Positions 24,306-45,939 of a DNA stretch of 64,000 nt are shown in pieces. The position numbers were made by a program, and so were the translations under genes. The notes beneath the pieces were generated by a model. That model searched no databases. It was given only the letters and a program-made list of their open reading frames with translations, and had not been told where the DNA came from. Every line of letters starts with the position of its first letter. The stretch's first letter is position 1. Where the stretch lies: positions 416,059 to 480,058 of the forward strand of contig JAVKHP010000001.1 of NCBI GenBank assembly GCA_031459855.1, given 5' to 3'. This DNA comes from Armatimonadota bacterium (GTDB lineage Bacteria > Sysuimicrobiota > Sysuimicrobiia > Sysuimicrobiales > Humicultoraceae).

Positions 24306-25106
24306 TCACCTCCTCGACTTCCGGCTCTTGGTGTCTTGTCGCTCACTCCTCGGCACCCTCCGCCCGTCGAGCCGCGCCGACCGACCCCTTCCCACACCTC
24401 CCGCCTGGGGCCCGTCTCCTGGCTCCTGCAACTTCCGCTCCGGCGCAGCCAGGAACGTCGCGATCATGTCCCGCACCTGTCGCAAGTGCACGCCCGCCCG
24501 CACTGCAGCCTGGTCTGCGTCGCGTCGGCGGTAGGCATCGAGGATCTGCTCGTGCTCCCGCTGGGCGATGTCGAACCGGCTCAGCAGCGCCAGGCTCACC
24601 CGCAGGTAGCGGTCCGAGGCGACGCGCAGCTCATCGTGCAACCGCAACAGCCGCGGCCGCCGGCTGGGGCGGCAGAGCGTGCTGTGGAACTCACGGTTCA
24701 ACGCCAGCCAGCGCGCGGGGTCCCGCTCGTCCGCCATCTGCCCCAGCAGCGCCTCGGCGTGCTCCAGGTCGTCGGCGGTGCAGTTGGGCACGGCGTAGCG
24801 GGTCAGAAGCTCTTCCAGGAAGATACGCACGTCGTACAGTTCATAGAGATCGTCGACGCTCAGCAGGCTGACTCGGGCGCCCCGCCGTGGCAGGATCTCC
24901 ACCAGCCCCTCCGCTTCCAGCCTGCGGAGCGCCTCGCGAATGACGCCCTCGCTCACACCGTACCTGGTGGCGAGCGCACGCTGCCGGAGCGAGTCGCCCT
25001 GCGGTATCCGGCCGGCCAGGATGGCTTCGCGCAACTCCGCGGCAACCACCTCGCCCACGGTATTGAACGGCAACCCCGCTCGTGGCGCTGTGTGCGTCGT
25101 TTGCAC
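24306..25106 (-). CDS. GntR-family regulator, FadR/FCD subgroup
   Basis: Transcription factor of 266 aa, first gene of the TRAP/hyu operon. Residues about 10-80 form the winged helix (VAAELREAILAGRIPQGDSL, YGVSEGVIREALRRLEAEGL). The C-terminal helical FCD-type domain (RIFLEELLTRYAV, NREFHSTLCRPS, HEQILDAYRRRD) binds a small acid ligand. A long basic tail follows. The GTG at 25106 is preferred because GGAG lies 8 bases upstream; an ATG at 25154 would place the palindrome 25131-25140 inside the gene. Autoregulation and control of the operon are inferred from position. Confidence 0.9.
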   Translation of the reverse strand: MQTTHTAPRAGLPFNTVGEVVAAELREAILAGRIPQGDSLRQRALATRYGVSEGVIREALRRLEAEGLVEILPRRGARVSLLSVDDLYELYDVRIFLEELLTRYAVPNCTADDLEHAEALLGQMADERDPARWLALNREFHSTLCRPSRRPRLLRLHDELRVASDRYLRVSLALLSRFDIAQREHEQILDAYRRRDADQAAVRAGVHLRQVRDMIATFLAAPERKLQEPGDGPQAGGVGRGRSARLDGRRVPRSERQDTKSRKSRR

Positions 25107-25450: not shown

Positions 25451-27040
25451 ATGACGCGCACCATCCCCCGCGCGCTCCGCGCCGGTCTGCGGGACGTCCG
25501 CCGGGGGCTGCAACTGGCGGCACTGTTGCGGCGGTCTCCGGTGTCTGCCGCACGGTTCGAGGACGACGTGCGCGCGCAGCTGGCACGGCGTGTGGAGAAC
25601 TTCCTCTGGTCGATCGAGCACTTGATCTTCGCCCACCGCGACAGTCCCTACCGGCCACTCCTGGACGCCGCCGGGTACGACCTGCCCCGGATCCGGGAGC
25701 TGGTGCTGCGCCTGGGCCTGGAGGCCGCCCTGGACCGCCTGTGGCAGGACGGCGTGTACGTGCGGGTCCAGGAGTTCAAGGGCCGTGAGGCGGCCGTACG
25801 CCATGGACGCACCTTCCGCTTCCGGGAGCGCGACTTCGCCAATCCCCGAGCGCCCGGCGTGCTCTGGGGGCAGAGCAGTGGATCTCGCAGCGGTGGCACG
25901 CAGACCGAGGTCTCGGTCGACGATCTCCTGTACCACACCCGTCTGCTCGCGTGGATGCTCGAGCGATACGGCCTGCAGGACCGCGACGTGGTGGTCTGGC
26001 TGACCCCCGGGGCCGGTCTCGAGCGTGTCGTCAGGTTCTCGCTGGCCGGCCGCCGCCCGCTGCGCTGGTTCTCCCCGGTAGGCTTCAGCAGCCCGTCGGT
26101 ACCTCTCATGCTGGCGATCGCGCGCGCAGCGGGTGCCGGCCCCCTGCCGCGCCTGCACATCGTGCCGCCCGAGCGTGTGCTGGAGATCGCCCGGGACATC
26201 CAGCGGGTGAACACGCGGCGTGGCCTCCTGGTGGCCGCGTTCGTGAACTCCGCGCTGCGCCTCGTGCTGGCCGCCGAGGAGGCGGGCATCGCCCTGGGCG
26301 ACGTAGCCTTTCTGTTGATGGGCGAGCCGGTGACGCCCGTCAAGCGCCGGCAGCTCGAGGAACGCGGGTTCCAGGTGTTCTCGCGGTTCGGGTTCTTCGA
26401 ACTGGGGGAACCGGCGTGGGCGTGTCTCGCGCCTCGGACGTCCGATGACCTGCACGTGATGACGGACATGGTGGCGGTGCGGCAGTACCCCCGCGTCGTG
26501 GACGGCGACGGCACCACGGTCTTTGCCTACCTCTTCACCAGCCTGCTGCCCCATGCGCGCCACGTGCTGCTGAACATGGAAACGGGCGACTACGGCGGGC
26601 TGGAGGAGCGGTCGTGCGGCTGTTTCCTCGACCGCATCGGGTTGCGGCTGCACATGCACACGATCCGGAGCTTCGAGAAGCTCACCGCCGAGGGCATCAC
26701 CTTCCTGGGCCCGACCCTGATCGAGCTCCTGGAGGACGTCCTGCCCAGGAGGTTTGGCGGCGACAGCCGGCACTACCAGCTGGTGGAGGGCGAGGACGCC
26801 CGCGGGTTCACGAAGCTCTACCTGCTGGTCAGCCCCCACCTGGGGCCGCTGGACGAGGCGGCCCTGCGCCGGACGTTGCTCGCGGAACTCGGAGTGCGCC
26901 ACCTGGATCCGGTTTACGGTCGCAGCGTGGCCACCGTCTGGAGCCAGGCTGACACCATCCAGATCGTCCGCCGGGACCCCCTGCCCACCACTGCGGGGAA
27001 AGTGTTGCACCTCCATCGCGTCCGCGGGGCGCTCCTGTGA
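25451..27040 (+). CDS. CapK/PaaK-like adenylate-forming enzyme (paralogue 1)
   Basis: Acyl-adenylating enzyme of 529 aa, related to phenylacetate-CoA ligase, coenzyme F390 synthetase and capsule protein CapK. The phosphate-binding loop is SSGSRSGGT (142-150). GEPVTPVKRRQLEERGF leads to FSRFGFFELG, the place of the YGxTE motif. TGDYG is followed by an SCGC motif (about 388-391), as in the PaaK group. The C-terminal lysine motif is AGKVLHLHR (Lys517). It should activate a carboxylic acid with ATP. It opens a five-gene plus-strand cluster and is a clear paralogue of the last gene. The ATG at 25451 has a weak ribosome site. Confidence 0.82.
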   Translation: MTRTIPRALRAGLRDVRRGLQLAALLRRSPVSAARFEDDVRAQLARRVENFLWSIEHLIFAHRDSPYRPLLDAAGYDLPRIRELVLRLGLEAALDRLWQDGVYVRVQEFKGREAAVRHGRTFRFRERDFANPRAPGVLWGQSSGSRSGGTQTEVSVDDLLYHTRLLAWMLERYGLQDRDVVVWLTPGAGLERVVRFSLAGRRPLRWFSPVGFSSPSVPLMLAIARAAGAGPLPRLHIVPPERVLEIARDIQRVNTRRGLLVAAFVNSALRLVLAAEEAGIALGDVAFLLMGEPVTPVKRRQLEERGFQVFSRFGFFELGEPAWACLAPRTSDDLHVMTDMVAVRQYPRVVDGDGTTVFAYLFTSLLPHARHVLLNMETGDYGGLEERSCGCFLDRIGLRLHMHTIRSFEKLTAEGITFLGPTLIELLEDVLPRRFGGDSRHYQLVEGEDARGFTKLYLLVSPHLGPLDEAALRRTLLAELGVRHLDPVYGRSVATVWSQADTIQIVRRDPLPTTAGKVLHLHRVRGALL

Positions 27041-27059
27041 GGCGCAGGGGGCCGGTGGC

Positions 27060-28616
27060 GTGAGCCACGCGCACGACGCCAGCCCATCCCCTGGCGGCGT
27101 CGATGGCCTGGCGGCCCTGGCGCGGCGGGGGACGCTGTGGACGCTCCTTTCCCAGGCGTACACGTGGGCTATCGGGTTTGGTAGCCGCGTGGTGCTGGCG
27201 CGCCTGCTCACGCCCCATGACTTCGGCCTGGTGGCGGTGGTCACGCTCGTGCAGGGGGCGGTACTGCTGTTTGGCCTGCGCGGGGTCTCCACGGCCCTGA
27301 TCCAGCGTGCCGACGACCTGGAGGCGCACGCCAACGCCAGCTTCTGGTTGCACCCGCTGGTCGGGAGCGCCATCGGGGTGGTGGTGCTGGCCGCGGCTCC
27401 CCAGGTGGCGCTCGCGTTTCGTGAGCCCCTCCTGGTGCCGCTGCTCCGGGTGGCGGCCCTCAGCTTCTTCGTGGTGCCCTGGGGCGCCACCCACGCCGCG
27501 CTCCTGACCAAGACGCTGGACCTCCCGCGGCTGACGGTGGCCCATGCCCTCGTGGGCACGGTCATGGCCCTCGGCACGGTGCTCATGGCGTTCCAGGGCT
27601 ACGGGGTGTGGAGTGTCGTCGTCCCGGTGGTCCTCGCCGATCCGATCCGGGTCTACGTGCACTGGCGGCTGTGCCCCTGGCGTCCCCGTGTCGCGGTGGC
27701 GCTGAGCCGGTGGCGCGAGCTCTTGCGCTACGCGCGGCACGTCTGGATCGCCGACGTGCTGCGGTACTGTGTGGACAACACCGACTACGTCGTGGTGGGT
27801 CGGCTGCTGGGGGCGAGCCCGCTGGGGCTGTACTCCTTCGCCTTCCGGCAGGCCATGTTCGCGGTGCAGAACGCCACGCCCATCGCGGCCCGAGTGGCGT
27901 TCCCGACGTTCGCGTCGCTGCAAGGGCACAGGGACGCGCTGCAGCGTCACGCGGGCAAGAGCCTGCTGTTGCTGGCCAGCGTCACGCTCCCGCTGCAGGT
28001 GGGACAGCTGGCCCTGGCGCCGGAGTACATCGCCGTCGTCTACGGGCCCAGGTGGCTTCCCGCGGTCGACGCCTTCCGGATCCTGCTGCTCTACGGCATT
28101 CCTCTGGCGGTCGCACTGCTGGTGCGGCACGTGCTCGCCGCGGTAGGATCTCCCCAGACCGTCTGGAAGTTCTACGCCCTGATCTGGCCTGCGCTGGCTG
28201 CGGGCGCGCTGCTGGGCGCGCGGGCCGGCGTCCTGGGCGTCGCGCTGGCCGTGGGCCTGATCCTGGGGCTGGGGTCCTGGCTCTTCGTCGTCGTCGGCCT
28301 GCGCCTGCTGGCCTGGCCGGCGCGACGGCTGCTCGCGCCGCTTACCGCCCCGGCCATGGCGTCCGTGGCCCTGTACGTCACCGTGGTGCTGCTGCGGCAG
28401 GTCCTGCTGACCGTCGGCGCCACGCCGGCCGTGGTGCTGGCCCTGGGCGTCCCGACCGGCGCAGCGGCCTACGCCCTGGTCCTGGCGCGATGCTTCCCGC
28501 GGGCGTGGGCGGACGTGGTGGGCTTCGCCGCGCGCGCGGCCACCGAGGTGCGCAGGGACGCCGGTCAGGTCGTCCGCCACCTTCGACGCAGGCTCTCGTT
28601 TGGAGGCGCGATGTGA
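27060..28616 (+). CDS. Oligosaccharide flippase, Wzx/RfbX-like (MOP superfamily)
   Basis: Polytopic membrane protein of 518 aa with about 12-14 hydrophobic helices. Family traits include ARRGTLWTLLSQAYTWAIGF at the N-terminus, RVVLARLLTPHDFGLVAVVT, and VDNTDYVVVGRLLGASPLGL in the middle. Such proteins flip lipid-linked glycans or teichoic-type precursors across the cytoplasmic membrane. The GTG at 27060 has AGGGGG upstream. The stop overlaps the next start (TGATG). With the CDP-alcohol enzyme behind it, an exported phosphodiester-containing glycan or lipid is the most natural product. Confidence 0.88.
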   Translation: MSHAHDASPSPGGVDGLAALARRGTLWTLLSQAYTWAIGFGSRVVLARLLTPHDFGLVAVVTLVQGAVLLFGLRGVSTALIQRADDLEAHANASFWLHPLVGSAIGVVVLAAAPQVALAFREPLLVPLLRVAALSFFVVPWGATHAALLTKTLDLPRLTVAHALVGTVMALGTVLMAFQGYGVWSVVVPVVLADPIRVYVHWRLCPWRPRVAVALSRWRELLRYARHVWIADVLRYCVDNTDYVVVGRLLGASPLGLYSFAFRQAMFAVQNATPIAARVAFPTFASLQGHRDALQRHAGKSLLLLASVTLPLQVGQLALAPEYIAVVYGPRWLPAVDAFRILLLYGIPLAVALLVRHVLAAVGSPQTVWKFYALIWPALAAGALLGARAGVLGVALAVGLILGLGSWLFVVVGLRLLAWPARRLLAPLTAPAMASVALYVTVVLLRQVLLTVGATPAVVLALGVPTGAAAYALVLARCFPRAWADVVGFAARAATEVRRDAGQVVRHLRRRLSFGGAM

Positions 28617-29431
28617 TGTCGTCGACCGACACGCTCGCCCCCGGCGTCCGGAAGGATGCGCCGGGACCCTCGTCCCGACCGAGCAGCGGGTGGGAACTGG
28701 GCTACTGGCTCTGGGTCGCGTACCGGCTCGCGGCCTTCTGCGTGCCCGTGTGCACGCGCCTGGGCGTACGCCCCAACCTGGTGACCGTCGTGGCCAGTGT
28801 GACGATGCTGGCCGGCCTCGGGCTCCTGGCGAGTGGCACAGCCGCCGGGGCCCTGGGCGGCGCCCTGTTGATGCACGTCTACTACGTGCTGGACGCCCTC
28901 GACGGCGATCTCGCGCGGGCGACGGGCCGGTCCTCGGTGTACGGGACGTACCTCGACGACCTGAACGGCCATCTGATGCCGCCGCTGCTGTTCGCGGCAC
29001 TCGGCGTCCACGTCTACCTGGCCCCGCAGCCCCCCCTGTGGGCCCTCGGGCCCGATGGCGGACGCACGGCGTGCTTGCTGCTCGGCGGCGTCGCTGCCCT
29101 GGCCACAGCGCAGCACGCGCTGGCCGAGATGCGGATGCGCGAGGCCCTACGGGCGCTCGCCCCCAAGACGTCGCCTGCCCCCGTGGCCAGCGTTCCCCCA
29201 CCACCGAGCGGGGCGCTGGGGCGGCGCGAAGCCTTCCTGCGCCACCTCATCGGTCGTCACCTCGTCGGCATGGACGGCACGCTGCTCCCAGCACTGGTGG
29301 TGGCCGCCCTGTGGAGGCGGCTGGACGTGGTGCTGCTGGTCATGGCGCCGGTCTCCCTGGGAAGTCTCCTCTGGCACCTGACGCGCGCGGTGGTCCTGCT
29401 GCGGCGGGCCGACCGGGACGGGGGCCGCTGA
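28616..29431 (+). CDS. CDP-alcohol phosphatidyltransferase-family membrane enzyme with altered last catalytic residue
   Basis: Integral membrane phosphotransferase of 271 aa that would move a phospho-alcohol from a CDP-activated donor to an acceptor alcohol. The signature DALDGDLAR (93-101) is followed at the right spacing by G110 and D114. The fourth acidic position is Gly118 (LDDLNGH) instead of the usual catalytic Asp; Asp115 or His119 next to it may substitute. Multiple helices follow (LLFAALGVHVYL, ALVVAALWRRLDVVLLVMAP). Its ATG overlaps the flippase stop, and its own stop overlaps the nucleotidyltransferase start (TGATG), so the two enzymes are tightly coupled. Confidence 0.85.
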   Translation: MSSTDTLAPGVRKDAPGPSSRPSSGWELGYWLWVAYRLAAFCVPVCTRLGVRPNLVTVVASVTMLAGLGLLASGTAAGALGGALLMHVYYVLDALDGDLARATGRSSVYGTYLDDLNGHLMPPLLFAALGVHVYLAPQPPLWALGPDGGRTACLLLGGVAALATAQHALAEMRMREALRALAPKTSPAPVASVPPPPSGALGRREAFLRHLIGRHLVGMDGTLLPALVVAALWRRLDVVLLVMAPVSLGSLLWHLTRAVVLLRRADRDGGR

Positions 29432-30180
29432 TGCGGGCCGTCGTCCTGGCGGCAGGACGCGGGACCCGGCTGCGCGCCGTCTGGCCGCACCCCAAGTGCC
29501 TGCTCCCGGTGGGCGGCCGGCCGCTGCTGGTCCGCTACATCGACGCCCTGCGCCGCCTTGGGGTCGACGAGCTGGTGGTCGTCACGGGCTTCGAACACGA
29601 GCGCGTGGACGCGCTGGCCGCCGCCACGACCTCCGTGGCGTTTCCGGTCCGCACTGTCCACAATCCCCGCGTGGGGGGCAGCGTGTGCTCACTGGACGCG
29701 GCCCGGGCCTGCATGGAGGGTGAGGTCCTGCTGATGGACGGCGACGTGTACTGCGAGGACGCCGTGCTGGCCCGGGCATGCGACGGCGGTCAGGAGGCCC
29801 TGGTGGTCGACCCATCCCGACCCTACGACCGCGAAAAGTACCGGGCCGCCATCGCGGGCGGACGCGCGACCGGGCTGGCGCGGGGATTGCGGAGTGCGCC
29901 TGGGGCAGAGTGGGTGGGGTTCGCGCGGCTCTCCCCGGACCGTGCCGCGCGCCTTGCGGCGCTGGCCCGCGCGTGTGTGCACCGCGGCGCCACCGACGTC
30001 GCCTACGAGGACCTCCTGGGGGCCACGGTCGCGGAAGCCCCCATGCCATGGGTCTCGGTCGCGGGACTGCGGTGGGCCGAGATCGACACGCCCGACGACT
30101 ACGCCCGCGCCGAGGCGCTGGCGCGGCAGGGCACCGTCCCACACCGCGCAGCTTCCGACCACAACGGGGGGACGCGATGA
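29431..30180 (+). CDS. Sugar/alcohol-phosphate nucleotidyltransferase (LicC/PntC/IPCT-like)
   Basis: Soluble nucleotidyltransferase of 249 aa. The NTP-binding loop LAAGRGTRL (6-14) and PKCLLPVGG (21-29) are intact, MDGD (102-105) supplies the metal-binding Asp, and EIDTPDDYARAEAL closes the domain. The size and absence of a C-terminal beta-helix fit cytidylyltransferases that make CDP-choline, CDP-aminoethylphosphonate or CDP-inositol rather than full-length glucose-1-phosphate enzymes. Immediate coupling to a CDP-alcohol phosphotransferase supports CDP as the nucleotide. The activated alcohol is unknown. Its stop overlaps the next ATG by 4 bp. Confidence 0.85.
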   Translation: MRAVVLAAGRGTRLRAVWPHPKCLLPVGGRPLLVRYIDALRRLGVDELVVVTGFEHERVDALAAATTSVAFPVRTVHNPRVGGSVCSLDAARACMEGEVLLMDGDVYCEDAVLARACDGGQEALVVDPSRPYDREKYRAAIAGGRATGLARGLRSAPGAEWVGFARLSPDRAARLAALARACVHRGATDVAYEDLLGATVAEAPMPWVSVAGLRWAEIDTPDDYARAEALARQGTVPHRAASDHNGGTR

Positions 30181-31808
30181 CCACAGGCCGCCGGCTGCGC
30201 CGCGCCCCTGCGACCATTGCCGCAGCCATCCGGGCCGGAGTGCAGATCGGACGCCTCCTGCGCCACCAGATAAGCGACGTCCGCGACTTCGCCGAGGAGC
30301 TGCGCGCCGCAGTGGCCCGCCGCGACGAGACGTTCCTCGCCAGCGCCGAGCGGGTCATCTTCGCGTACCCGAACAGCCCCTATCGGCCGCTGCTGGAGGC
30401 AGGGGGCTACGACTTCCAACGGCTCACTCACCTCGTGCGCACGCGAGGGCTCGATGGCGCCCTGGACCAGCTCCGGGCCGACGGCGTCTTCGTGACGATC
30501 CAGGAGTTCAAGGGCCTCGTGCCAGCGGTGCGCGGAAAGACGACCTTGCGTTTTCAGCCCAGGGACTTCGCCACCCCTGACACCACCCGGGCGTTTCAGG
30601 CGACCAGCAGCGGATCCCGGGGGGCGCCCACGCCCAGCACCGTGCCGCTCGAAGAGCTGGTCGCCCGCGCCCGCCTGCGACGCTGGCTCAACCTCCACTA
30701 CGGTCTGGCGGGACGCGACGTGCTGGTGTGGCTCAGCGCCAGCACGGGCCTCGTCTGGCTGCTGGTGGGGGCCCTGACCGGAGAGCGCCCCGTGCGCTGG
30801 TGCTCGCAGGTGTTCGAGGCCGCACCCCACACGCGGCTCCTGCTGACGACCGTCCGCGCCGTCAGCGGCAGACCGTTGCCGCCCATGGAGGTCGTGCCCG
30901 CCGATCGCGCGACCGAGCTCGCTCGATACATCAGCCGGGTGAACACCGCCCGCGGCATGGTGGTCGAGACGTTCGCCAGCTCCGCCCTACGGTTGGTGCT
31001 CGCCGCCGACGACGCAGGTCTCGCCTTGGGCGACGTCGTCTTCATCGTTGCGGGCGAGCCGCTGACACCTGCGAAGCGCCGTGCCATCGAGGCGCGCGGC
31101 TTCCGCGTGCTGTCCCGCTTCTCGTTCACCGAACTGGGCAACTGCGCCTGGCAATGCCCGGTCGGGCACGAGGCCGACGACCTGCACGTCCTCACCGACC
31201 GTGTCGCCGTACGCGAGCACCTGCGGCCGATCTCACCCCACGGCGCCCAGGTACGTGCGCTGCTGTTCACCACGCTGCTGCCGCATGCCCGCAACGTGCT
31301 GCTCAACGTGGAGAGCGGTGACGAGGCACGCCTGGAAGAGCGCTCCTGTGGTTGTTTCCTCGACCGCGCCGGGCTGCGACTCCACATGCATACCATCCGC
31401 AGCTTCGAGAAACTCACAGCCGAGGGTCTGACGTACCTCGGCCCTGCGGTCGCGGAGCTCCTGGAGGAAGAGCTCCCGCGCCGGTTCGGCGGCGACGGCC
31501 GGCACTACCAGCTCGTCGAAGGGGAGGACGAGAGCGGCTTCACGCGGCTCTTCCTGCTCGTGAGCCCTGCCGTAGGCCCCGTGGACGAGGACGCTGTGCG
31601 ACGGACGGTTCTGCGCGAAATGGCTCGCCGGCACCTGGTGCCAGCGTACGGACGCATCGTGCAGCGCGCCTGGGAGGCCGCGGGCACGCTCCAGGTGCTC
31701 CGCCGCGAGCCCCTGCCCACCCCTTCGGGGAAGATCCTCCACCTGCACCGCGGCGTACTGGAACAGGCGGACGCGAGGAGCGCTCCCCGCCCGCCGTCTG
31801 CGCCCTGA
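30177..31808 (+). CDS. CapK/PaaK-like adenylate-forming enzyme (paralogue 2)
   Basis: Second adenylating enzyme of the cluster, 543 aa. It aligns with the 25451 gene over its whole length: the shared EERSCGCFLDR, GLRLHMHTIRSFEKLTAEG and GGDxRHYQLVEGED blocks are almost identical. The phosphate loop is SSGSRGAPT (144-152), the YGxTE equivalent is FSFTELG, and the C-terminal lysine lies in SGKILHLHR. The N-terminal third differs more, so the two probably act on different acids or acceptors. The ATG at 30177 overlaps the nucleotidyltransferase stop. Last gene of the cluster. A GGCGGGCCCGCC palindrome at 31891-31902 may help termination. Confidence 0.82.
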   Translation: MTTGRRLRRAPATIAAAIRAGVQIGRLLRHQISDVRDFAEELRAAVARRDETFLASAERVIFAYPNSPYRPLLEAGGYDFQRLTHLVRTRGLDGALDQLRADGVFVTIQEFKGLVPAVRGKTTLRFQPRDFATPDTTRAFQATSSGSRGAPTPSTVPLEELVARARLRRWLNLHYGLAGRDVLVWLSASTGLVWLLVGALTGERPVRWCSQVFEAAPHTRLLLTTVRAVSGRPLPPMEVVPADRATELARYISRVNTARGMVVETFASSALRLVLAADDAGLALGDVVFIVAGEPLTPAKRRAIEARGFRVLSRFSFTELGNCAWQCPVGHEADDLHVLTDRVAVREHLRPISPHGAQVRALLFTTLLPHARNVLLNVESGDEARLEERSCGCFLDRAGLRLHMHTIRSFEKLTAEGLTYLGPAVAELLEEELPRRFGGDGRHYQLVEGEDESGFTRLFLLVSPAVGPVDEDAVRRTVLREMARRHLVPAYGRIVQRAWEAAGTLQVLRREPLPTPSGKILHLHRGVLEQADARSAPRPPSAP

Positions 31809-31988: not shown

Positions 31989-32074
31989 TGGTGCCGGGAG
32001 GGGGATTTGAACCCCCACGGGAAACCCCACACGCCCCTCAAGCGTGCGCGTCTGCCAAGTTCCGCCATCCCGGC
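31989..32074 (-). tRNA. tRNA-Leu (anticodon GAG)
   Basis: Class II tRNA of 86 nt with encoded CCA. The acceptor arm is GCCGGGA / TCCCGGC with discriminator A and CCA at 31989-31991. The anticodon stem is CACGC / GCGTG around loop TTGAGGG, giving anticodon GAG for CUC and CUU leucine codons. The long variable arm (about TGTGGGGTTTCCCGTG) and the T-arm GGGGGTTCAAATCCCCC are clear. A consensus promoter lies upstream. Confidence 0.96.
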
Positions 32075-32113: not shown

Positions 32114-32143
32114 ATTATAGAAACGCCCGCGCAGGGGTGTCAA
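32114..32143 (-). promoter_or_regulatory. Consensus sigma-70-type promoter for tRNA-Leu
   Basis: On the minus strand TTGACA (32143-32138), an 18-bp spacer and TATAAT (32119-32114): both hexamers match consensus perfectly. Predicted start of transcription is near 32107, about 33 nt before the mature tRNA end. Confidence 0.85.
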
Positions 32144-37358: not shown

Positions 37359-38000
37359 TCAGCGCCCGGCCTCCTTGGCCTCCAGCTTCTTCTTGATGCG
37401 CTTCAGGCGGAAGACGTCCTCCCGGGCCCGCTGCTCCAGCACGGAGGCGATGTACCGGGTCTCCATGCGCAGCCGCGGGATCACCACCTGCTCCAGGGCG
37501 TTGACGCGGCGGGTCGTCTTCTTGATCTCCTCGCCGATCTTGCGCAGCTTGATCTCGGTGGCGGCCACCGCCAGGATCGCGCTCACCACGTCCTCGAACT
37601 GGCTCGTGCTGGCCATGGTGCGGGCGCTGGTGGCCACGGGGTTCTGGCCCCGCTCGAGCACGGAGCGCCGCACGTCGGTGATGGCCACCTCGGGGATCTT
37701 GGTCCCCCACACGTTGCGGATGGCGATGTCCAGCAGCACGTCCCGCCGGGCCGGGATGGCGGCGGCCTCGAGCGCCTCGCGGCCCTCGAAGGCCTTGGCC
37801 AGGGTCAGCATGACGTACGCCTCGCGGCAGGCGGCGGTGAGGCGCTCGCGGGCCTGGAGCGACTCGCGCACGACCTTGAAGAAGTCGGCCACCAGCGCAT
37901 CGCGCTTCCGCTTGAGCAGGTCGACGCCCTGCTGCGCCACGCGCAGCTGGTTGCGCCGCTGCAGCAGGTTCATGCGGGTGGGGCTGATGACCTCGGCCAT
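37359..38000 (-). CDS. atpD: V/A-type ATP synthase subunit D (central stalk)
   Basis: Coiled-coil rotor shaft of the V/A-ATPase, 213 aa. It begins ISPTRMNLLQRRNQLRVAQQ, the subunit D signature. Long amphipathic helices at both ends pair as the stalk, and the C-terminus carries RMETRYIASVLEQRAREDVF. It couples catalytic-head rotation to the membrane ring together with subunit F. Last ATPase gene of the operon, 63 bp after subunit B. Confidence 0.95.
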   Translation of the reverse strand: MAEVISPTRMNLLQRRNQLRVAQQGVDLLKRKRDALVADFFKVVRESLQARERLTAACREAYVMLTLAKAFEGREALEAAAIPARRDVLLDIAIRNVWGTKIPEVAITDVRRSVLERGQNPVATSARTMASTSQFEDVVSAILAVAATEIKLRKIGEEIKKTTRRVNALEQVVIPRLRMETRYIASVLEQRAREDVFRLKRIKKKLEAKEAGR

Positions 38001-38063
38001 TGCGCGCTCCCCGTCTCTGTCAGCGCCCCGGGCGCGCCGTCGGCGCGGCGCCCGCGTCCGGCG

Positions 38064-39479
38064 TCACAGCCGGATCTTCTCCTCCCAGAGCTGCTCCATC
38101 TGCTCGCCGAAGTAGTACTTGTCCACGTGGTCCTGCTTGATGCGCTTGAGTTCACCCTTGGGGAACATCGACAGGAGCTTCCAGCCGATGGTGAGGGTCT
38201 CCTCGATGGACCGATCGGTCTGCCCCTGGCCCAGGAACTCGCGCTCGAACGCCTCGGCGAACTTCAGGTAGAGGCGGTCGCGGTCGGTCAGCGCTTCCTC
38301 GCCGATGATGGCCACGAGGCGGCGCAGGTCCACGCCGTTGGCGTACGACGCGAACAGCTGGTCCTTGACGTTGGCGTGGTCGGCGCGGGTGCGCCCGGGC
38401 CCGATGCCGTCGTTCATCAGGCGCGACAGGCTCGGCAGGGGGTTGATGGGCGGGTAGATCCCGTTGCGGTGCAGCGCCCGGCTCAGCACGATCTGCCCTT
38501 CGGTGATGTAGCCCGTGAGGTCGGGGATCGGGTGGGTGATGTCGTCGTCGGGCATGGTCAGGATCGGCAGCTGGGTGATGGAGCCCTTGCGGCCGTGGAT
38601 GCGGCCCGCGCGCTCGTAGATGGTGGCCAGGTCGGTGTACATGTAGCCGGGGTAGCCGCGCCGGCCCGGGATCTCCTCGCGCGCCGCGCCGATCTCGCGC
38701 AGCGCCTCGCAGTAGTTGGTCATGTCCGTCAGGATGACCAGCACCTGCATGTCCAGCTCGAACGCCAGGTACTCGGCGGTGGTCAGCGCCACCCGGGGGG
38801 TCATCAGCCGCTCGATGGCCGGGTCGTCGGCCAGGTTGAGGAAGACCACGCTGCGCGCCAGCGCGCCGGTGGACTCGAACTGCTCGATGAAGTACGCCGC
38901 CTCGCGCTGGGTGATGCCCATGGCGCCGAAGACCACCGAGAACGCCTCGCCCTCGCCGCGCACCCTGGCCTGGCGGGCGATCTGGGCCGCCAGCTCGTTG
39001 TGGGGCAGCCCCGCGCCCGAGAAGATCGGCAGCTTCTGGCCGCGCACCAGCGTGTTGAGGCCGTCGATGGCCGAGATGCCGGTCTGGATGAACTCCTGCG
39101 GCCGTTGCCGCGCCACCGGGTTGATGGGCGCGCCCACCACCGGCAGGCGCTTCTCGGGGATGATGGGCGGCAGCCCGTCGATGGGATCGCCCAGGCCGTT
39201 GAACCGTCGGCCGATCATCTCGCGGGAGACGCCGATGCGGGCCACGTCCTCGCGCAGGCTGACCGAGGTGTGGGCCAGGTCCAGTCCGGCGGTCTCCTCG
39301 AAGACCTGGATCACCGCCACCCGCTCGGACGCCTCGATGACCTGGCCGCCCCGGATGCTGCCGTCGGGCAGGTGGATGTTGACGATGGCGCCATACGGCA
39401 GGTCCCGGGCGCCCTCGACGAACAGCAGCGGCCCGGAGATGTACGAGATCGACTGGTACTGCTTGGTCGCCAGCTCCAT
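38064..39479 (-). CDS. atpB: V/A-type ATP synthase subunit B (non-catalytic)
   Basis: Regulatory nucleotide-binding subunit of the V1/A1 head, 471 aa. Start [20 protein letters not shown], the centre [16 protein letters not shown], and [18 protein letters not shown] are typical. The Walker A loop is replaced by [14 protein letters not shown], as expected for the B subunit, which does not hydrolyse ATP. It lies 6 bp after subunit A. Confidence 0.97.
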
Positions 39480-39485
39480 GGCCTG

Positions 39486-41243
39486 CTACCCTCCCGCCGC
39501 GGCCTTGGCCCCGAACGCCTCGGGGAGCCGCGCGAACCACGCCGCGATGTACGCGCCGAACTGGTCGTTGGGCACTTCCTTCATGCGGGCGATCTCCTCC
39601 ATCTGCTTGAGGTTCAGGATCTCGTCCATGGCCATCCCGCGCCGCAGCGCCGCGCTGGCCTCGTCGTAGAAGGTGATGATGGCCCGCAGCATCCCGTAGG
39701 CCTTCTCCAGGGAGCAGTAGGCGTCCACCTCCGAGAACGACGACTGCTGGAGGAAGTCCTCGCGCAGCATCTTGCCCGCCTCGATCACCAGCCGCTGGTC
39801 GTCCTGGAGGGCGTCGGGCCCCACGAGCTGCACGATCTCCTGCAGCTCGGCCTCGCGCTGCAGCAGCGCCGAGGCGCGGTCGCGCAGGGTCTCGAAGTCC
39901 TCGGGCATGTGCTCCCGGTACCAGTCGCGGAACAGCGGCGTGTAGAGGCTGTAGGAGCGCAGCCAGTGGATGGCCGGGAAGTGGCGCCGGTGGGCCAGGC
40001 TGGCGTCCAGCGACCAGAAGGTGCCGACGATGCGCAGGGTGGCCTGGGTAACCGGTTCGGACAGGTCGCCGCCGGGTGGCGAGACCGCCCCGACCACGGT
40101 GACCGACCCGTGGCGCTCCGGCTGCCCCAGGCAGACGGCGCGCCCGGCGCGCTCGTAGAACGCCGCCAGACGGCTGGAGAGGTAGGGCGGGTAGCCCTCC
40201 TCGGCGGGCATCTCCTCCAGCCGGGACGAGATCTCGCGCATCGCCTCGGCCCACCGGCTGGTGGAGTCGGCCATCAGCGCCACCTTGTAGCCCTGGTCAC
40301 GCCAGTACTCGGCCATGGTGATGCCGGTGTAGACCGACGCCTCCCGGGCCGCCACGGGCATGTTGGACGTGTTGGCGATGATGATCGTCCGCTCCATGAG
40401 CGGCCGGCCAGTGCGCGGGTCCTCCAGCTCGGGGAACTCGTCGAGCACGTGGGTCATCTCGTTGCCGCGCTCGCCGCACCCCACGTAGATGATCACGTCG
40501 GCGTTGGACCACTTGGCCAGCGTCTGCTGCATGACGGTCTTCCCCGAGCCGAACGGCCCGGGGATGGCCGCCGCACCGCCCATCGCCACCGGGAAGAGGA
40601 CGTCGATGATGCGCTGGCCCGAGATGAACGGCTCCCGCGGGTCGAGCTTGCGCGCCACGGGCCGGGGCACGCGCACCGGCCAGCGGTGCGCGAGCCGCAG
40701 CTCGGTGCCGTCGTCCAGACGGCCGATGACGTCGTCGACGGTGAACTCCCCGGAGCGCAGCTCCGCGAGCCGCCCGCCCCGCAGCCCCGGCGGCACCATG
40801 ATCCGGTGCTGGAAGCCGAACTCCTGCACCCAGCCCAGCACGTCGCCGGGGCCGACCTGCTGCCCGGGGGCCGCCGTGGCGACGAACGCCCACCGCTTCG
40901 TACGGTCGAGGGCCTCGGTCACCGCGCCGCGGGCGATGAAGTCGCCCTTCTGGCGCCGCACGCTCTCCAGGGGCCGCTGAATGCCGTCGAAGATCGAGGT
41001 CAGCAGCCCCGGCCCCAGCTCCAGCGACAGGGGCGCGCCCGTGGTGTGCACGGGCTCCCCCACCTGCAACCCCGAGGTGTCCTCGTAGACCTGGATGAAG
41101 GCCGTGGCCCCGTCCAGCCGGATGATCTCGCCCAGCAGGCCCTCGCGGCCCACGCGGACCAGGTCGTACATCCGCGCGCCGGGAATCCCCCGGGCGATGA
41201 CCGCTGGCCCGGCGATCTTGATGATCTCGCCCTGCGTCGCCAT
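39486..41243 (-). CDS. atpA: V/A-type ATP synthase subunit A (catalytic)
   Basis: Catalytic subunit of 585 aa. Walker A is [12 protein letters not shown] near residues 227-238, and the Walker B region is [20 protein letters not shown]. The V/A-specific non-homologous insertion (about residues 90-190) is present, separating it from F-type beta subunits. [21 protein letters not shown] is another hallmark. Neighbours F and B overlap or nearly abut it. Confidence 0.98.
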
Positions 41244-41253
41244 CGCCTGCCTC

Positions 41254-41571
41254 CTACCGCAGCTTCACGTAGAACCCGATGTGCTCCTTGACCAGCCGCG
41301 CCACGTACTGCTCGGCGCTCTCGGCCTGCGCCTCCGGGGCCGGGAACGGCACGAGGATCGGCAGGTCGCGGCCGCGCAGCAGCCGCGCGCGCTCCTCGGC
41401 GGCCCCCTCCAGCAGCGCCTCGTTGACGGCCACCAGGCCGTAGTCCAGCGCGACGAGCTGCCGGAGCTGCTCCAGGGCCTCCCGGGGCGTGGTGGCCTCG
41501 CGCACCTCCACGCCCGCCAGGCGAAAGCCCGTGGCGGTCTCGGGGTCGGTGATCACGGCGAACCTATACAA
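41254..41571 (-). CDS. atpF: V/A-type ATP synthase subunit F
   Basis: Small stalk subunit of 105 aa that regulates the rotor with subunit D. It reads [20 protein letters not shown] at the N-terminus, then [10 protein letters not shown] and [10 protein letters not shown], the CheY-like fold of subunit F. I place the start at the TTG at 41571, overlapping the end of subunit C by 8 bp with GGGAG just upstream. No ATG is available in frame nearby. Confidence 0.9.
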
Positions 41572-42595
41572 GGAGCATCTCCCGGCGCACCTGCTCGCGC
41601 GGCAGCCCGTACACCTTGCCGCGCGCAATGAGCCGCAGGTTCGCCACCTCCGCGGTCTTCATGGCCAGGAAGCCCACGACGATGTCGATGCCCAACGGAT
41701 CGCCCAGGTAGTAGCGGACCAGGGTCCTGACCACATGATAGTCGAGCTCCCGTTCGAACGCCACGAGATCGCCGGGCAGTTCTTTCACCGGAAAGCCGTG
41801 GACGCGCAGCCGCTCCCACGCCGCCGCCTGGGCCTGGGCATCCGACAGCCCCAGGAACAGCTTGTCGGTGACGATGGCGCCGCCGGGGATGTAGAACTGC
41901 AGCCGCCGGGCCTCGGGCAGCGTCCCGGCCAGGGCCAGCTTGAGCGCGGTCTTGACGTTGGCGACGTCGATCTCGGTGCGGAAGACCTCGCGCAGCACCG
42001 CGGCGTCGTGCCCCCGACCGCTCGCCCGCGCCAGCCCCCAGCCAGCATAGGCGCGCTCCAGCCCCAACTCCAACGCCAGCAGGTCCTGGGTGCGGGCGTA
42101 CGCGGCGACGCCCTCGGCCAGCGGCCCCGCCAGCGGGTGGTTCACCGCCTCCAGCGTGCCGGCCAGCGCTGCCATGTCGGGGTAGCCCGCCAGCTCCTTC
42201 AGGAGGGTCTCGCTGAGGTTGCCGGCCGGCACCAGGGCAGCGACGATCTCGTCCGCGGGGCGGCCGGCATGTTTGCCGCGCACGATGACCCGCAGGTTGT
42301 GCAGGTCCCAGCGCAGCAGCAGCGTCTCCAGCAGCGCGCGGGCCTGGCCGTCGGCGAAGCTCAGAATCGCCCGCGTGGTGCGCTGGAGGTTGCGCGCCAG
42401 CGCCTCGTCCACCGCCCGCACACCCTGCGCGCGGACCAGCGCTTCCTGGAGGTCGTCGCCGTAGGGCGTGGCCGCCAGCGCCTGCAGGAACGCCTCGAAC
42501 GTCGGCGCCCCGAGCAGCTCCTCCAGCCGCCCCGGCGACAGCAGCCGGCTGCGCATGGCGCGGACCCTGGCGTTGACGTAGGGGAAGTCCGGCAT
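41564..42595 (-). CDS. atpC: V/A-type ATP synthase subunit C (d-type, ring cap)
   Basis: All-helical funnel-shaped subunit of 343 aa that links the central stalk to the proteolipid ring. It begins PDFPYVNARVRAMRSRLLSP, the typical family start, with repeats of LHNLRVIVRGKHAGRPADE and VANLRLIARGKVYGLPREQV. The repeated NLR-IxRGK motif marks its three-fold internal symmetry. It overlaps subunit F and is 11 bp from subunit E. Confidence 0.93.
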   Translation of the reverse strand: MPDFPYVNARVRAMRSRLLSPGRLEELLGAPTFEAFLQALAATPYGDDLQEALVRAQGVRAVDEALARNLQRTTRAILSFADGQARALLETLLLRWDLHNLRVIVRGKHAGRPADEIVAALVPAGNLSETLLKELAGYPDMAALAGTLEAVNHPLAGPLAEGVAAYARTQDLLALELGLERAYAGWGLARASGRGHDAAVLREVFRTEIDVANVKTALKLALAGTLPEARRLQFYIPGGAIVTDKLFLGLSDAQAQAAAWERLRVHGFPVKELPGDLVAFERELDYHVVRTLVRYYLGDPLGIDIVVGFLAMKTAEVANLRLIARGKVYGLPREQVRREMLLV

Positions 42596-42606
42596 GCGGC
42601 CGACGG

Positions 42607-43185
42607 TTACCCCCAGAGCACGCGCGCCACCTCGCCGGCCAGCATCGGACGCGCGCGCTCCAGGCGCGAGGCCAGCGTGTTGGTGACGACGAACCGCCCA
42701 TCGGCCGAGGTCACGCGCGCGCCGCCGGTCACGGCCGGGTCGGTGTGCACCTGCACCTGCCAGCCCTGGCGGCGGACCACCTCGCGTGCCAGCGGCGCGT
42801 CGTCGGGGTGCACCGTGACCACGGCGGCATCGCCGAGGCTGCGCACCGCCTCCAGGAGAAACGCCTCCAGCGCCGCCGGGTACGCCTGGGGGTCGCGCGC
42901 CAGCCGCGCCAGTTCGGCCTCGGCCTCGGCGAAGACCTTGCCGATCTCCTCCTCTTTGGCCTGGAGCACCAGGGACGTCGCGCGCAGCTGCGCGGTGCTC
43001 TGCGCCCGGGTCACCGCGGCACGGTAGGCGGCCTCCAGCCGCTCGTGGTGGCGCGCCACCAGCTCGGCCGCCTGCTGCCGGGCCTCGGCGACGATCGCCT
43101 CGGCCTGGGCCCGGGCGTCGGCCAGGAGCTTCTCGCGCTCGGCCGCAGCCTCGCGCTCGAGGAGGGCGATCAGCTCCGACGTCAT
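42607..43185 (-). CDS. atpE: V/A-type ATP synthase subunit E (peripheral stalk)
   Basis: Peripheral-stalk subunit of 192 aa. Its N-terminal half is a coiled coil (EREAAAEREKLLADARAQAE, AAELVARHHERLEAAY), and the C-terminal globular part holds AVVTVHPDDAPLAREVV and GGARVTSADGRFVVTNTLASR, the VatE fold. With subunit H it anchors the head to subunit I. The ATG is at 43185. Confidence 0.92.
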   Translation of the reverse strand: MTSELIALLEREAAAEREKLLADARAQAEAIVAEARQQAAELVARHHERLEAAYRAAVTRAQSTAQLRATSLVLQAKEEEIGKVFAEAEAELARLARDPQAYPAALEAFLLEAVRSLGDAAVVTVHPDDAPLAREVVRRQGWQVQVHTDPAVTGGARVTSADGRFVVTNTLASRLERARPMLAGEVARVLWG

Positions 43186-43202
43186 GGTCTGCGCCCGCCG
43201 GA

Positions 43203-43523
43203 CTACAGCCGGCCGACGATGAAGAAGGCCACCAGGAAGCCGAAGATGATCAGCGTCTCGGGCAGCACCAGGAAGATCAGCATCTGCCCGCCGATCTCGG
43301 GCCGCTCGGCCATGGCGCCCGCGGCCGCGGACCCGATGCGCGACTGCGCCCAGGCGGTGCCGATGGCGCCGCCGAAGACCGCCAGCGCTGCGGCCAGGGC
43401 CATCAGTCCGTGGGCCAGGGTGATCTGCCGGGCGCCCTCGGCCGGCGTCTCCGCGGCCAGCCCGGGGCCGGCCGCGAGCAGCACCGCCACCGCCAGCGTC
43501 AGCATCCGTAGAACCGTCTTCAC
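43203..43523 (-). CDS. atpK: V/A-type ATP synthase subunit K (proteolipid ring)
   Basis: Rotor-ring proteolipid of about 106 aa. The c-type helical hairpin covers about residues 35-104: HGLMALAAALAVFGGAIGTA, the polar loop QSRIGSAAAGAMAERPEIGG, and LVLPETLIIFGFLVAFFI with ion-carrying Glu89. An N-terminal hydrophobic segment (5-24) resembles a signal peptide, as in the Thermus and archaeal proteolipids. I prefer the GTG at 43523 because GGGAGG lies 8 bases upstream; a GTG at 43532 is in the subunit I overlap. Confidence 0.9.
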   Translation of the reverse strand: MKTVLRMLTLAVAVLLAAGPGLAAETPAEGARQITLAHGLMALAAALAVFGGAIGTAWAQSRIGSAAAGAMAERPEIGGQMLIFLVLPETLIIFGFLVAFFIVGRL

Positions 43524-43524
43524 G

Positions 43525-45477
43525 CTAGTCACCTCCCGTTTTGTGGAGCGGCTGGTACGAGTTGCCGGTTTCGTCGTGGTACTTCACCTTGGTGAGGAAC
43601 TCGACCCAGTTGAGACGCGCCGGCTGGATGATGTGCCCGGCGATCGTGAACAGGAAGAACACCAGCTGGAAGGCGATACCGGCCAGCACCCCGACCCACA
43701 CCGGCCCCAGCTGGCCGCCCAGCTCGTTGGCGACGTTGGCCAGCACGGCCGCGGCCAGCCCGACGCCGAACAACCGGGCATAGGACAGGACGTTGCCCAT
43801 GCCCGAGATCGCCTCCAGCAACCACATCAGGGCGAACCGGCTGACCACGACGCCCAGCGCCACGAACACCACGAACGCCCCCAGCAGCAGCATCCCGGGG
43901 CGCTGGACCGCCGCCGGGAGCTGCCCGCCCATGGCACCCAGCACGGCCACCAGCCCCAGCACCCCCGAGAGCATCGCCAGCGACTCGAGCACGCCGAAGG
44001 TGTGCCGGTGCCGGAGGGCCACCACCAGGTGCAGCACGTAGCCCAGCACGATCTGCACCAGGCCCAGCGCCACGGTGAACTTGAAGAACGCGATGGTCAG
44101 CTCCACGCGGTTGAAGAGCGGGTGCAGGCCGAGGTGGTGCTCGAGCAGGTTGCCGAACACCTCGAGGTACAGCGCGCCGAAGAGCATCGACCAGGCGGCC
44201 ATGACGCGGATGATCCACGAGGCGTCGGCCAGCGCCGCCGGGCCCAGCTTCATGCCGAGCTGGATCGGCCCGACCCCCACCTCCCACGTCTCGCCGCGCC
44301 GGGCCTTGCTCCGCAGCCACCACCCGAACGCGAAGAGCAGCGCGCCGTAGGCCACGTCGCCGATGACGATACCGACGAACAGCGGGAAGAAGACCGCCAG
44401 GAAGATCGTCGGGTCCAGGGTGCCGTACCGTGGCGGCTTGAACAGCGCCAGCATGCGCTGGAACGGCCGGATCGGCGCGGGGTTGTCCAGCAGCACCGGC
44501 ACGTGCTCCGCCTCGTGGGGATCGGCGGGCGCGTCGTAGACCACCACGTCGCCGGCGAAGCGCGTGCGCAACACGCCGCGCACCTCGCCCACGCGCGGGG
44601 CCGGCACCCAGCCGTGCAGGATGAACGTGTAGCGCGACTGCCCCAGCTGGGGCAGCGTGCGCAGCTGGGCCAGCCGGTCGGCGACCAGGGCCCGCATGGC
44701 GGTCAAGCGCGGCCGGTGCCGACGGGCCGCCTCGGCCAGCTGCTGGCCGATCGCCTCGAGCTCGGCCGGCAGCTCGGCGCGGCGGCGCTCCATGTGTCGC
44801 ACGGCCTCCAGGGGCGGGTACTGGGCGTAGCGCGCCGGGAGCCGCAACTCCGAGATGCCCGCCTGCGTGAGGAAGCTGCGCACCGTGTCGGCGTCGCGGT
44901 GCAGGTAGGCCACCACCACGCCGATCTTGCCTTCCTCGACGATCCGGCTCACGACCTCCACGCGCCCGCCGGTGCGCGCGGCCAGCTGCTGGCGCAGCGC
45001 CTGCACCACCGACAGGTCCTTGCCGCGCACGATGAAGCCCACCGACTCGAGGTGCCGGCTGCCCTCCAGCGCGGCCAGCAGCGGCGAGAGCACGCGCACC
45101 GCGCCCTCGTAGGTCCGGATCAGCTCCAGTTCCTCTTCGGCCTCGAGCCGGCGCCGCACCAACGCCTGCACGTCGGCCTCGATCTCGCCCACCGCCGCGT
45201 CCAGGGCCGCGTCGTCGGCGTCGGCGAGGGCAGCGGCCTGGGCGGCACCGCCGACCGACGGCAGGAGCTTCAGCAGCCCGTCGATCCGGGCCAGGAGCCG
45301 CTCCAGCGCCTGCACCCGGGCGGCCGTGGCCTCGTCGACCTCCACGGTGCCGACGGGCGCTTCCTCCGCCTCGATCCGGTCGACGTGGACGACGCCCAGG
45401 CGCTGGACCTCGTCCAGCACCGGGCCCAGCAGGCGCTTGGGCCCGACCACCAGGACACGGTGCATCGGGACGATCAC
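43525..45477 (-). CDS. atpI: V/A-type ATP synthase subunit I (a-type membrane stator)
   Basis: Stator subunit of 650 aa with two halves. A cytoplasmic arm (1-300) contains coiled coils (ATAARVQALERLLARIDGLL). A membrane domain of about eight helices begins after PTIFLAVFFPLFVGIVIGDV. The FFLFTIAGHIIQPARLNWVE block near the C-terminus carries the key Arg and Glu/His side chains of the ion half-channels. The GTG at 45477 overlaps the subunit H stop by 4 bp. Confidence 0.96.
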   Translation of the reverse strand: MIVPMHRVLVVGPKRLLGPVLDEVQRLGVVHVDRIEAEEAPVGTVEVDEATAARVQALERLLARIDGLLKLLPSVGGAAQAAALADADDAALDAAVGEIEADVQALVRRRLEAEEELELIRTYEGAVRVLSPLLAALEGSRHLESVGFIVRGKDLSVVQALRQQLAARTGGRVEVVSRIVEEGKIGVVVAYLHRDADTVRSFLTQAGISELRLPARYAQYPPLEAVRHMERRRAELPAELEAIGQQLAEAARRHRPRLTAMRALVADRLAQLRTLPQLGQSRYTFILHGWVPAPRVGEVRGVLRTRFAGDVVVYDAPADPHEAEHVPVLLDNPAPIRPFQRMLALFKPPRYGTLDPTIFLAVFFPLFVGIVIGDVAYGALLFAFGWWLRSKARRGETWEVGVGPIQLGMKLGPAALADASWIIRVMAAWSMLFGALYLEVFGNLLEHHLGLHPLFNRVELTIAFFKFTVALGLVQIVLGYVLHLVVALRHRHTFGVLESLAMLSGVLGLVAVLGAMGGQLPAAVQRPGMLLLGAFVVFVALGVVVSRFALMWLLEAISGMGNVLSYARLFGVGLAAAVLANVANELGGQLGPVWVGVLAGIAFQLVFFLFTIAGHIIQPARLNWVEFLTKVKYHDETGNSYQPLHKTGGD

Positions 45478-45836
45478 GCGGACGCTCCTCGCACCACGCG
45501 GTCCACCACCAGCCGGACCGCCTGCGCCCGGTGGGCCGCCGCCTGGCGCCGCAGCGCTTCGACCTCCTGCTGCGCCCGCGTCTCGTGCTCCGCGGTGATG
45601 CGCGCCACCTCGGCCGCGACGCGCTCCTCGTGCGCCCGCGAGGCCGCCGCGACCTCGTCGCGCGCCTGCTGGAGGATGCGCTCCGCCTCGGCGCGCGCCC
45701 GCGCCACCAGTGCCGCCGCCTCCTGGCGGGCCGCGGCCAGCGCCGCCTCGAGTTCCCGTTCCTTGTGGGCGATCAGCTGCAGGAGGTTCTCGTCCTTGCG
45801 GTCGTCGTGCCCATGACCAGCCCGCTGCGCGCTCAT
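45474..45836 (-). CDS. V/A-type ATP synthase subunit H/G (peripheral stalk coiled coil)
   Basis: First gene of the ATPase operon, 120 aa and almost wholly coiled coil (NLLQLIAHKERELEAALAAA, EEAALVARARAEAERIL-type heptads). This is the G/H-like subunit that pairs with E to make the peripheral stalk, in the same operon place as Thermus atpG. The start ATG is at 45836. Low sequence conservation of this class means the call rests on position and coiled-coil character. Confidence 0.82.
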   Translation of the reverse strand: MSAQRAGHGHDDRKDENLLQLIAHKERELEAALAAARQEAAALVARARAEAERILQQARDEVAAASRAHEERVAAEVARITAEHETRAQQEVEALRRQAAAHRAQAVRLVVDRVVRGASA

Positions 45837-45869
45837 TCGGCCTGCCCCTTGGGAATCCGTCGCAAGAAA

Positions 45870-45894
45870 CCCCCAGGTCGCGTCACCCTGGGGG
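45870..45894 (-). promoter_or_regulatory. Leader hairpin of the V/A-ATPase operon (attenuator-like)
   Basis: Stem CCCCCAGG / CCTGGGGG with a 9-nt loop, followed on the minus strand by TTTCTTG. It begins about 10 nt after the predicted transcription start and ends 33 nt before the first ATG. The stem and short U-run look like an intrinsic terminator placed in the 5' leader; a stabilising 5' stem is the alternative. Confidence 0.55.
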
Positions 45895-45910
45895 CGCACA
45901 CACCGTTGGC

Positions 45911-45939
45911 AGGATAGCAAACGCCCCAGGGGGCGTCAA
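45911..45939 (-). promoter_or_regulatory. Sigma-70-type promoter of the V/A-ATPase operon
   Basis: On the minus strand TTGACG (45939-45934), a 17-bp spacer and TATCCT (45916-45911). Transcription would start near 45904, about 68 nt before the subunit H ATG. Confidence 0.75.

Follow-up and report, generated by a model that had tools for sequence, protein, structure and literature searches.

A candidate CDP-alcohol head-group module with a Wzx-type flippase and two PaaK-like ligases in one genome of the CSP1-3 phylum

What is made by five adjacent genes which combine a cytidylyltransferase and a membrane phosphotransferase with a flippase and two divergent ligases? The question is raised by a locus of an Armatimonadota bacterium of the phylum CSP1-3 (Sysuimicrobiota), the genome of which (G000) measures 3.19 Mb and is 97.7% complete. 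The window, i.e. the whole stretch of DNA analyzed, is 64,000 nucleotides long (G000:C1:416059-480058), and the five open reading frames, read from the sequence, lie on the plus strand at 25451–31808. With moderate confidence, the cluster is taken to be a CDP-alcohol head-group module.

The first gene, CapK1 (25451–27040), encodes a divergent PaaK-like adenylate-forming ligase of 529 aa. It is followed, after a gap of 19 nt, by a Wzx/MOP-type flippase with a GTG start (27060–28616, 518 aa), a CDP-alcohol phosphotransferase (CDP-AP; 28616–29431, 271 aa), a LicC/PntC/IPCT-type cytidylyltransferase (NT; 29431–30180, 249 aa), and CapK2, a second PaaK-like ligase (30177–31808, 543 aa). Five plus-strand genes, the last four overlapping by 1–4 bp, had been reported in the initial annotation, and the same frames, with overlaps of 1, 1 and 4 nt, were derived again from the sequence. 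Third-position GC is 0.86–0.92 in all five, which marks them as real coding frames. The identities given earlier to the three central genes are borne out by profile matches: PF13440 (E=1.7e-66) and PF01943 for the flippase, PF01066 (CDP-OH_P_transf) for CDP-AP, PF12804 (NTP_transf_3, E=6.5e-15) for NT.

NT and CDP-AP genes are found side by side in several other microorganisms. The pair is accompanied by phosphoenolpyruvate (PEP) mutase in Roseomonas marmotae and Mycetohabitans, by inositol-3-phosphate synthase in Sphingomonas, Prevotella and Bacteroides, and by an iron-type alcohol dehydrogenase in Streptomyces; in the exopolysaccharide locus of L. plantarum a cytidylyltransferase and a CDP-AP occur with TagD, among glycosyltransferases. 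Experimental precedents are PntC, which makes CMP-aminoethylphosphonate (PMC6697681), and CpgD, which makes CDP-glycerate (PMC12275187); the NT/CDP-AP cluster of Bacteroidetes has been linked to inositol lipids through lipid analysis of carrier species (PMC9246714). The predicted NT and CDP-AP core is a recurrent and known head-group module. The logic initially proposed, in which NT makes CDP-X, CDP-AP transfers phospho-X, and the flippase exports the product, fits the recurrence of the pair in named head-group and surface-polymer loci (PMC6697681, PMC9246714).

From gene content, overlaps, catalytic motifs, the specificity residues of NT, and the recurrence of the pair, we infer a substrate, an acceptor, a direction of transport and a role for the ligases. 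NT would form CDP-X from CTP and a small phospho-alcohol, X-P, which most likely bears an amine; the membrane CDP-AP would transfer phospho-X to a lipid or a lipid-linked acceptor; the flippase would move the product outward. CapK1 and CapK2 would probably adenylate a carboxylic acid; they may load it on the same product, or serve the uptake or CoA activation of a related acid.

The nature of X-P can be approached through the NT pocket. Among solved structures, NT is closest to the PntC domain of Treponema denticola (6pd1, E=1.4e-9 over residues 2–225), and then to MurU-type enzymes, LicC (1jyk) and IPCT (2xme). Aligned with 6pd1 and with four plasmid-borne relatives (L102–L105), NT keeps the G9-R-G11-T-R13 loop, K22, D105, E217 and D219. 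In T. denticola PntC, Lys25 is catalytic, and Glu104 and Glu196 touch the amine of aminoethylphosphonate (PMC6697681); these residues align with K22, D103 and E193 of NT. D103 is part of the triplet D103-G104-D105 (29737–29745, plus strand), in which D105 is the metal-binding Asp. An acidic residue two positions before the metal Asp is thus shared by NT, T. denticola PntC (Glu104), and S. pneumoniae LicC (Asp105). In CpgD, glycerate is contacted by Asn110, two positions before the metal residue Asp112 (PMC13228409, PMC12275187). Among the plasmid-borne relatives, Asp at the specificity position and the Glu occur together, as in NT, in the enzymes of PEP-mutase loci (L102, L105); Asn is found, and the Glu is missing, in those beside fatty-acyl-AMP ligases (L103, L104). 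The position is occupied by Met in IPCT (2xme), and by Asn in MurU-type enzymes. Judged by two residues, the pocket resembles the amine-binding PntC/LicC type, not that of CpgD, IPCT, or the hexose-1-phosphate enzymes against which the initial annotation had proposed to check it.

The gene content of the genome narrows the choice further. No PEP mutase (motif EDKxxxxxNS) was found in G000, where both PF13714 proteins carry the isocitrate-lyase-type EDQ...K-x-CGH motif, and a phosphonate head group was rejected on this ground. An inositol head group was rejected as well, because inositol-1-phosphate synthase (PF01658) had no match in G000, while the control was positive in 6 genomes. One LicA-like protein of the APH/choline-kinase family is encoded far from the cluster (L101, G000:C1:1314317-1314895), and is a possible source of a phospho-amino-alcohol; by eye, its gene adjoins one for a methylamine-type corrinoid protein. 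The amine-type pocket, the lack of both substrate-making enzymes, and the presence of the LicA-like protein favour phosphoethanolamine or phosphocholine as the best guess for X-P.

Several observations weigh against a head-group module. The cluster holds no kinase or substrate-making gene. The fourth signature Asp of CDP-AP is replaced by Gly118. Relatives of the CapKs are encoded with ABC uptake systems, and for this reason the CapKs may lie outside the pathway of the product. The AlphaFold models of NT (pLDDT 39) and CapK2 (pLDDT 48) are too poor to use. Conservation of the five genes as a unit, a check named beforehand, failed: the set is present in 0 of the 42 other CSP1-3 genomes, hence in a single genome.

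The two ligases are paralogues, 56% identical. Neither reaches the cut-off of any Pfam family; CapK1 reaches that of no NCBIfam family either, and CapK2 has a weak NCBIfam match to BagE/FevW (E=1.3e-5). CapK1 features the motifs QSSGSRSGGT, FFELG and LPTTAGKVLHLHR. Conserved features are an A3-like SSGSR loop, an A5-like Glu (E319), a C-x-C site, and a C-terminal Lys which is invariant (K519). With a profile of 23 CapK homologues, phenylacetate-CoA ligases of solved structure are matched over the PaaK core (9s3l, E=7e-10), and hhalign relates the family to AMP-binding PaaK-like proteins of the CSP1-3 genome G003 (97.5% probability over 273 columns). CapK1 and CapK2 are, from these similarities, very probably adenylate-forming, and the earlier view of two PaaK/CapK-like genes at the cluster ends holds, the two being divergent members without a Pfam model.

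Among the 43 CSP1-3 genomes, only family f1 has full-length CapK copies, weak partial matches being found elsewhere. G003 has 12 matches, G001 7 including fragments, G006 3, G002 1, and G000 the 2 of the cluster. Many copies of G003 reside near contig ends. One clear copy was identified outside the phylum, in one (G352) of 343 genomes searched. CapK2 shares a clade with CapK1 and four G003 copies. A recent tandem duplication of CapK1 and CapK2 is unsupported, as each is as close to the copy at L057 (56–59%) as to the other, within an unresolved clade.

It is doubtful, yet deserves weight, that the CapKs are unrelated to the CDP-X module, and represent carboxylate-CoA ligases tied to solute uptake, carried next to it at a variable site near a tRNA. 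The nearest relatives of the cluster CapKs are transporter-linked copies. The closest ones (51–59% identity) reside at L056 and L075, where the order is ABC ATPase, permease, CapK, NMT1 substrate-binding protein (TauB-TauC-CapK-NMT1), and at L057, beside an ABC-2 transporter. Further transporter-linked CapKs are found at L062 (TctC), L063 (SBP_bac_6) and L072; the G352 copy lies, by eye, beside a sugar ABC transporter; and a G003 CapK with SBP_bac_6 and permease genes is located about 5 kb past the same tRNA-Leu that bounds the cluster. However, all five genes form one directon, in which CapK2 shares 4 nt with NT and 19 nt separate CapK1 from the flippase gene; none of the five is a transporter gene; and CapKs occur also in glycan loci, with glycosyltransferases and deacetylases (L061, L058, L074). 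CapK ligases of G003 repeatedly adjoin NMT1/THI5-like substrate-binding proteins (L056, L075, L061, L064), even in the glycosyltransferase locus L061. Because the nearest relatives reside in ABC-uptake loci and others in glycan loci, CapK is, as far as gene neighbourhoods indicate, no marker of a polymer pathway, and the idea of a product decorated with a CapK-activated carboxylate is unproven.

The flippase belongs to the TuaB/WzxC branch of MOP flippases (NCBIfam match PRK10459/TuaB-like), and features 11 hydrophobic segments by Kyte-Doolittle analysis. No glycosyltransferase, in agreement with the initial annotation, and no Wzy, initiating transferase or chain-length gene were found among the five genes by domain search. 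An ordinary Wzx/Wzy capsule locus is ruled out, since the set lacks glycosyltransferase and Wzy. The cluster may still serve a dispersed surface-polysaccharide pathway: CDP-AP would attach phospho-X to an undecaprenyl-linked oligosaccharide assembled by glycosyltransferases encoded elsewhere, Wzx would flip it, and the CapKs would add acyl or amino-acid groups. The branch of the flippase, the L. plantarum exopolysaccharide locus, where a cytidylyltransferase and a CDP-AP with Gly in place of the fourth Asp sit among glycosyltransferases, and the CapK homologues of glycan loci speak for it; the genes missing from the set, and the inositol-lipid precedents, in which the same NT and CDP-AP pair acts on lipids, speak against it. 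This arrangement is judged unlikely, slightly more so than unrelated CapKs.

CDP-AP exceeds the PF01066 cut-off of 22 (29.6 bits; 31.6 bits in the genome-wide search). Its weak structure and profile matches are the archaetidylinositol-phosphate synthase AF2299, PIPS and CEPT1/CHPT1. Only 3 strong segments were detected by Kyte-Doolittle analysis, the family having six transmembrane helices. The signature D1x2D2Gx2AR...Gx3D3 is conserved (D93, D96, G97, A100, R101, G110, D114), and extends as D93-x2-D96-G-x2-A-R-x8-G110-x3-D114-x3-G118 over 28892–28969 on the plus strand; the codon GGC at 28967–28969 encodes Gly118, at the place of the fourth Asp, the residue presumed to act as catalytic base in the family (PMC6506517). 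The position was compared in twelve relatives, a small sample chosen by similarity to two Gly-type queries and with an unreadable motif at L104, and six of them carry Gly or Ala (L118, L119, L121, L122, L125, L126). They span Actinomycetota, Bacillota and Bacteroidota, three phyla besides CSP1-3. In S. fungicidicus and Nonomuraea, the surroundings of the enzyme include an NT and an iron-type alcohol dehydrogenase, the dehydrogenase being annotated in S. fungicidicus and recognized by eye in Nonomuraea; the enzyme of L. plantarum, with Gly, is beside TagD; that of Parabacteroides occurs with a gene of the cytidylyltransferase family, and those of Prevotella and Bacteroides with NT and inositol-3-phosphate synthase. 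Asp is kept in the enzymes of PntC loci, and in those of Sphingomonas, Streptomyces NBC_01643 and Cetobacterium. Cytidylyltransferase-paired CDP-APs appear often to lack the fourth Asp, most such relatives checked being without it, and a sequencing error is less likely, as relatives share Gly or Ala.

It is improbable, though conceivable, that CDP-APs lacking this Asp form a distinct class, using soluble CDP-alcohols supplied by the neighbouring cytidylyltransferase, and either an acceptor which needs no deprotonation, such as polyprenyl phosphate, or another base; combined here with a new PaaK-like family and Wzx, such an enzyme would yield an acylated phospho-amino-alcohol lipid or polymer not described before. 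Least probable is a decaying cluster, a passing acquisition with a CDP-AP killed by Gly at the catalytic position, which would suit a set found in one genome only, but not five intact frames with a strong coding signal, nor Gly or Ala at the same position in six cytidylyltransferase-paired enzymes of three other phyla. The recurrent loss of the Asp poses a mechanistic question which is directly testable.

The five genes form a closed directon, bounded by a divergent regulator-like gene (24309–25058, minus strand; GntR/FadR-like by eye) and by tRNA-Leu(GAG) (31989–32074, minus strand). The order gap-pgk-tpiA-secG-tRNA-Leu is kept in five other genomes (G001, G002, G003, G007, G010); beyond the tRNA-Leu, each has different genes, and none the five-gene set. 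By synteny, the set is best read as assembled locally, at a tRNA-Leu site which varies, rather than as a pathway conserved in the phylum. An integrative element was considered and discarded: nowhere else in the window is the tRNA end repeated over at least 14 nt, and no integrase was noticed, so that only the variability of the site is shown. A perfect TTGACA-18-TATAAT promoter-like site lies directly upstream of the tRNA gene (32143..32114, minus strand), and the site which varies within the family is on the 3' side of this gene. A V/A-type ATPase operon, recognized by eye (37359–45920; subunits D, B, A and more), adjoins gap-pgk-tpiA-secG. CDP-AP finds a single additional match in the CSP1-3 genomes, which lies in an unrelated glycan locus in G002. 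A scan of a named genome collection retrieved only the CapKs of Armatimonadetes bacterium CSP1-3 XU14, in a different context; the genes at that locus are the same as those on contig C81 of G003, a genome which belongs to the same family as G000. A tblastn search of plasmids gave no match for CDP-AP at E<=1e-5, nor for CapK2 at E<=0.01.

The cluster also bears on the lipids of the phylum. PF01066 is undetectable in 33 of the 43 CSP1-3 genomes (21 of the 28 of high quality), all 14 control genomes being positive; CDP-AP is the sole PF01066 protein found in G000. TIGR00560 (pgsA) is over cut-off in none of the 43, a weaker line of evidence as only 6 of 14 controls pass. CdsA (PF01148) is present in 40. 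In most CSP1-3 genomes, CdsA is present and no enzyme of the PgsA family is detected. As relatives without the cluster show, it is no general explanation of how the phylum gets from CDP-diacylglycerol to phospholipids. If the head-group module is real, it would add one more head group to phosphocholine, aminoethylphosphonate, inositol phosphate and glycerate, in a phylum where PgsA-type enzymes seem mostly missing.

Compared with known systems, the cluster was initially presented as a candidate new pathway, which is an overstatement for the core; the novelty would lie in the gene combination and in the head group. No paper describing the five-gene combination was found in literature searches. 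What appears new, in one genome and with a function assigned by homology, is that the core is joined to Wzx and to ligases of a Pfam-orphan family, that no substrate-making gene accompanies it, and that the phylum is CSP1-3. The PntC loci of Mycetohabitans rhizoxinica pBRH01 and Roseomonas marmotae p1318-3 (PEP mutase, AepY, aminoethylphosphonate transaminase, PntC, CDP-AP) share with the cluster a LicC-like NT with an acidic specificity residue and a CDP-AP (27–35% identity); in contrast, the cluster has no PEP mutase, decarboxylase or transaminase, includes a flippase and CapKs, and its CDP-AP lacks the fourth Asp. The alternative inositol-lipid cluster of Bacteroidetes (MIPS, NTP transferase, CDP-AP, HAD hydrolase; PMC9246714) shares the NT and CDP-AP pair and, in the two members checked, Gly at the fourth Asp, but G000 has no inositol-phosphate synthase match, the set no HAD gene, and the NT specificity residue differs from that of IPCT. 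LicC of the phosphocholine-tailoring lic system shares the NT fold, the catalytic residues, and the acidic residue two positions before the metal Asp; the cluster differs from lic in lacking LicA and LicD, its transferase being a CDP-AP. Caulobacter CpgD and the Roseomonas loci L103 and L104 also combine a cytidylyltransferase with an adjacent adenylate-forming ligase, in the context of envelope lipids, but have Asn for Asp at the specificity position, and their ligase is recognized by Pfam (PF00501), and is not a CapK. On the two Roseomonas plasmids a fatty-acyl-AMP ligase and an epimerase or short-chain dehydrogenase/reductase gene adjoin the cytidylyltransferase, an arrangement similar to that of the ceramide-phosphoglycerate loci of Caulobacter. 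Finally, CapK1 and CapK2 share the A3, A5 and A10 motifs, the C-x-C region and profile similarity with PaaK/CapK enzymes (COG1541-like), from which they are set apart by the lack of a Pfam match, an extra N-terminal region and, close to the A8 position, the unusual stretch R-S-F-E-K-L-T; with up to 12 copies per genome, the family would represent an uncharacterised branch of the adenylate-forming enzymes.

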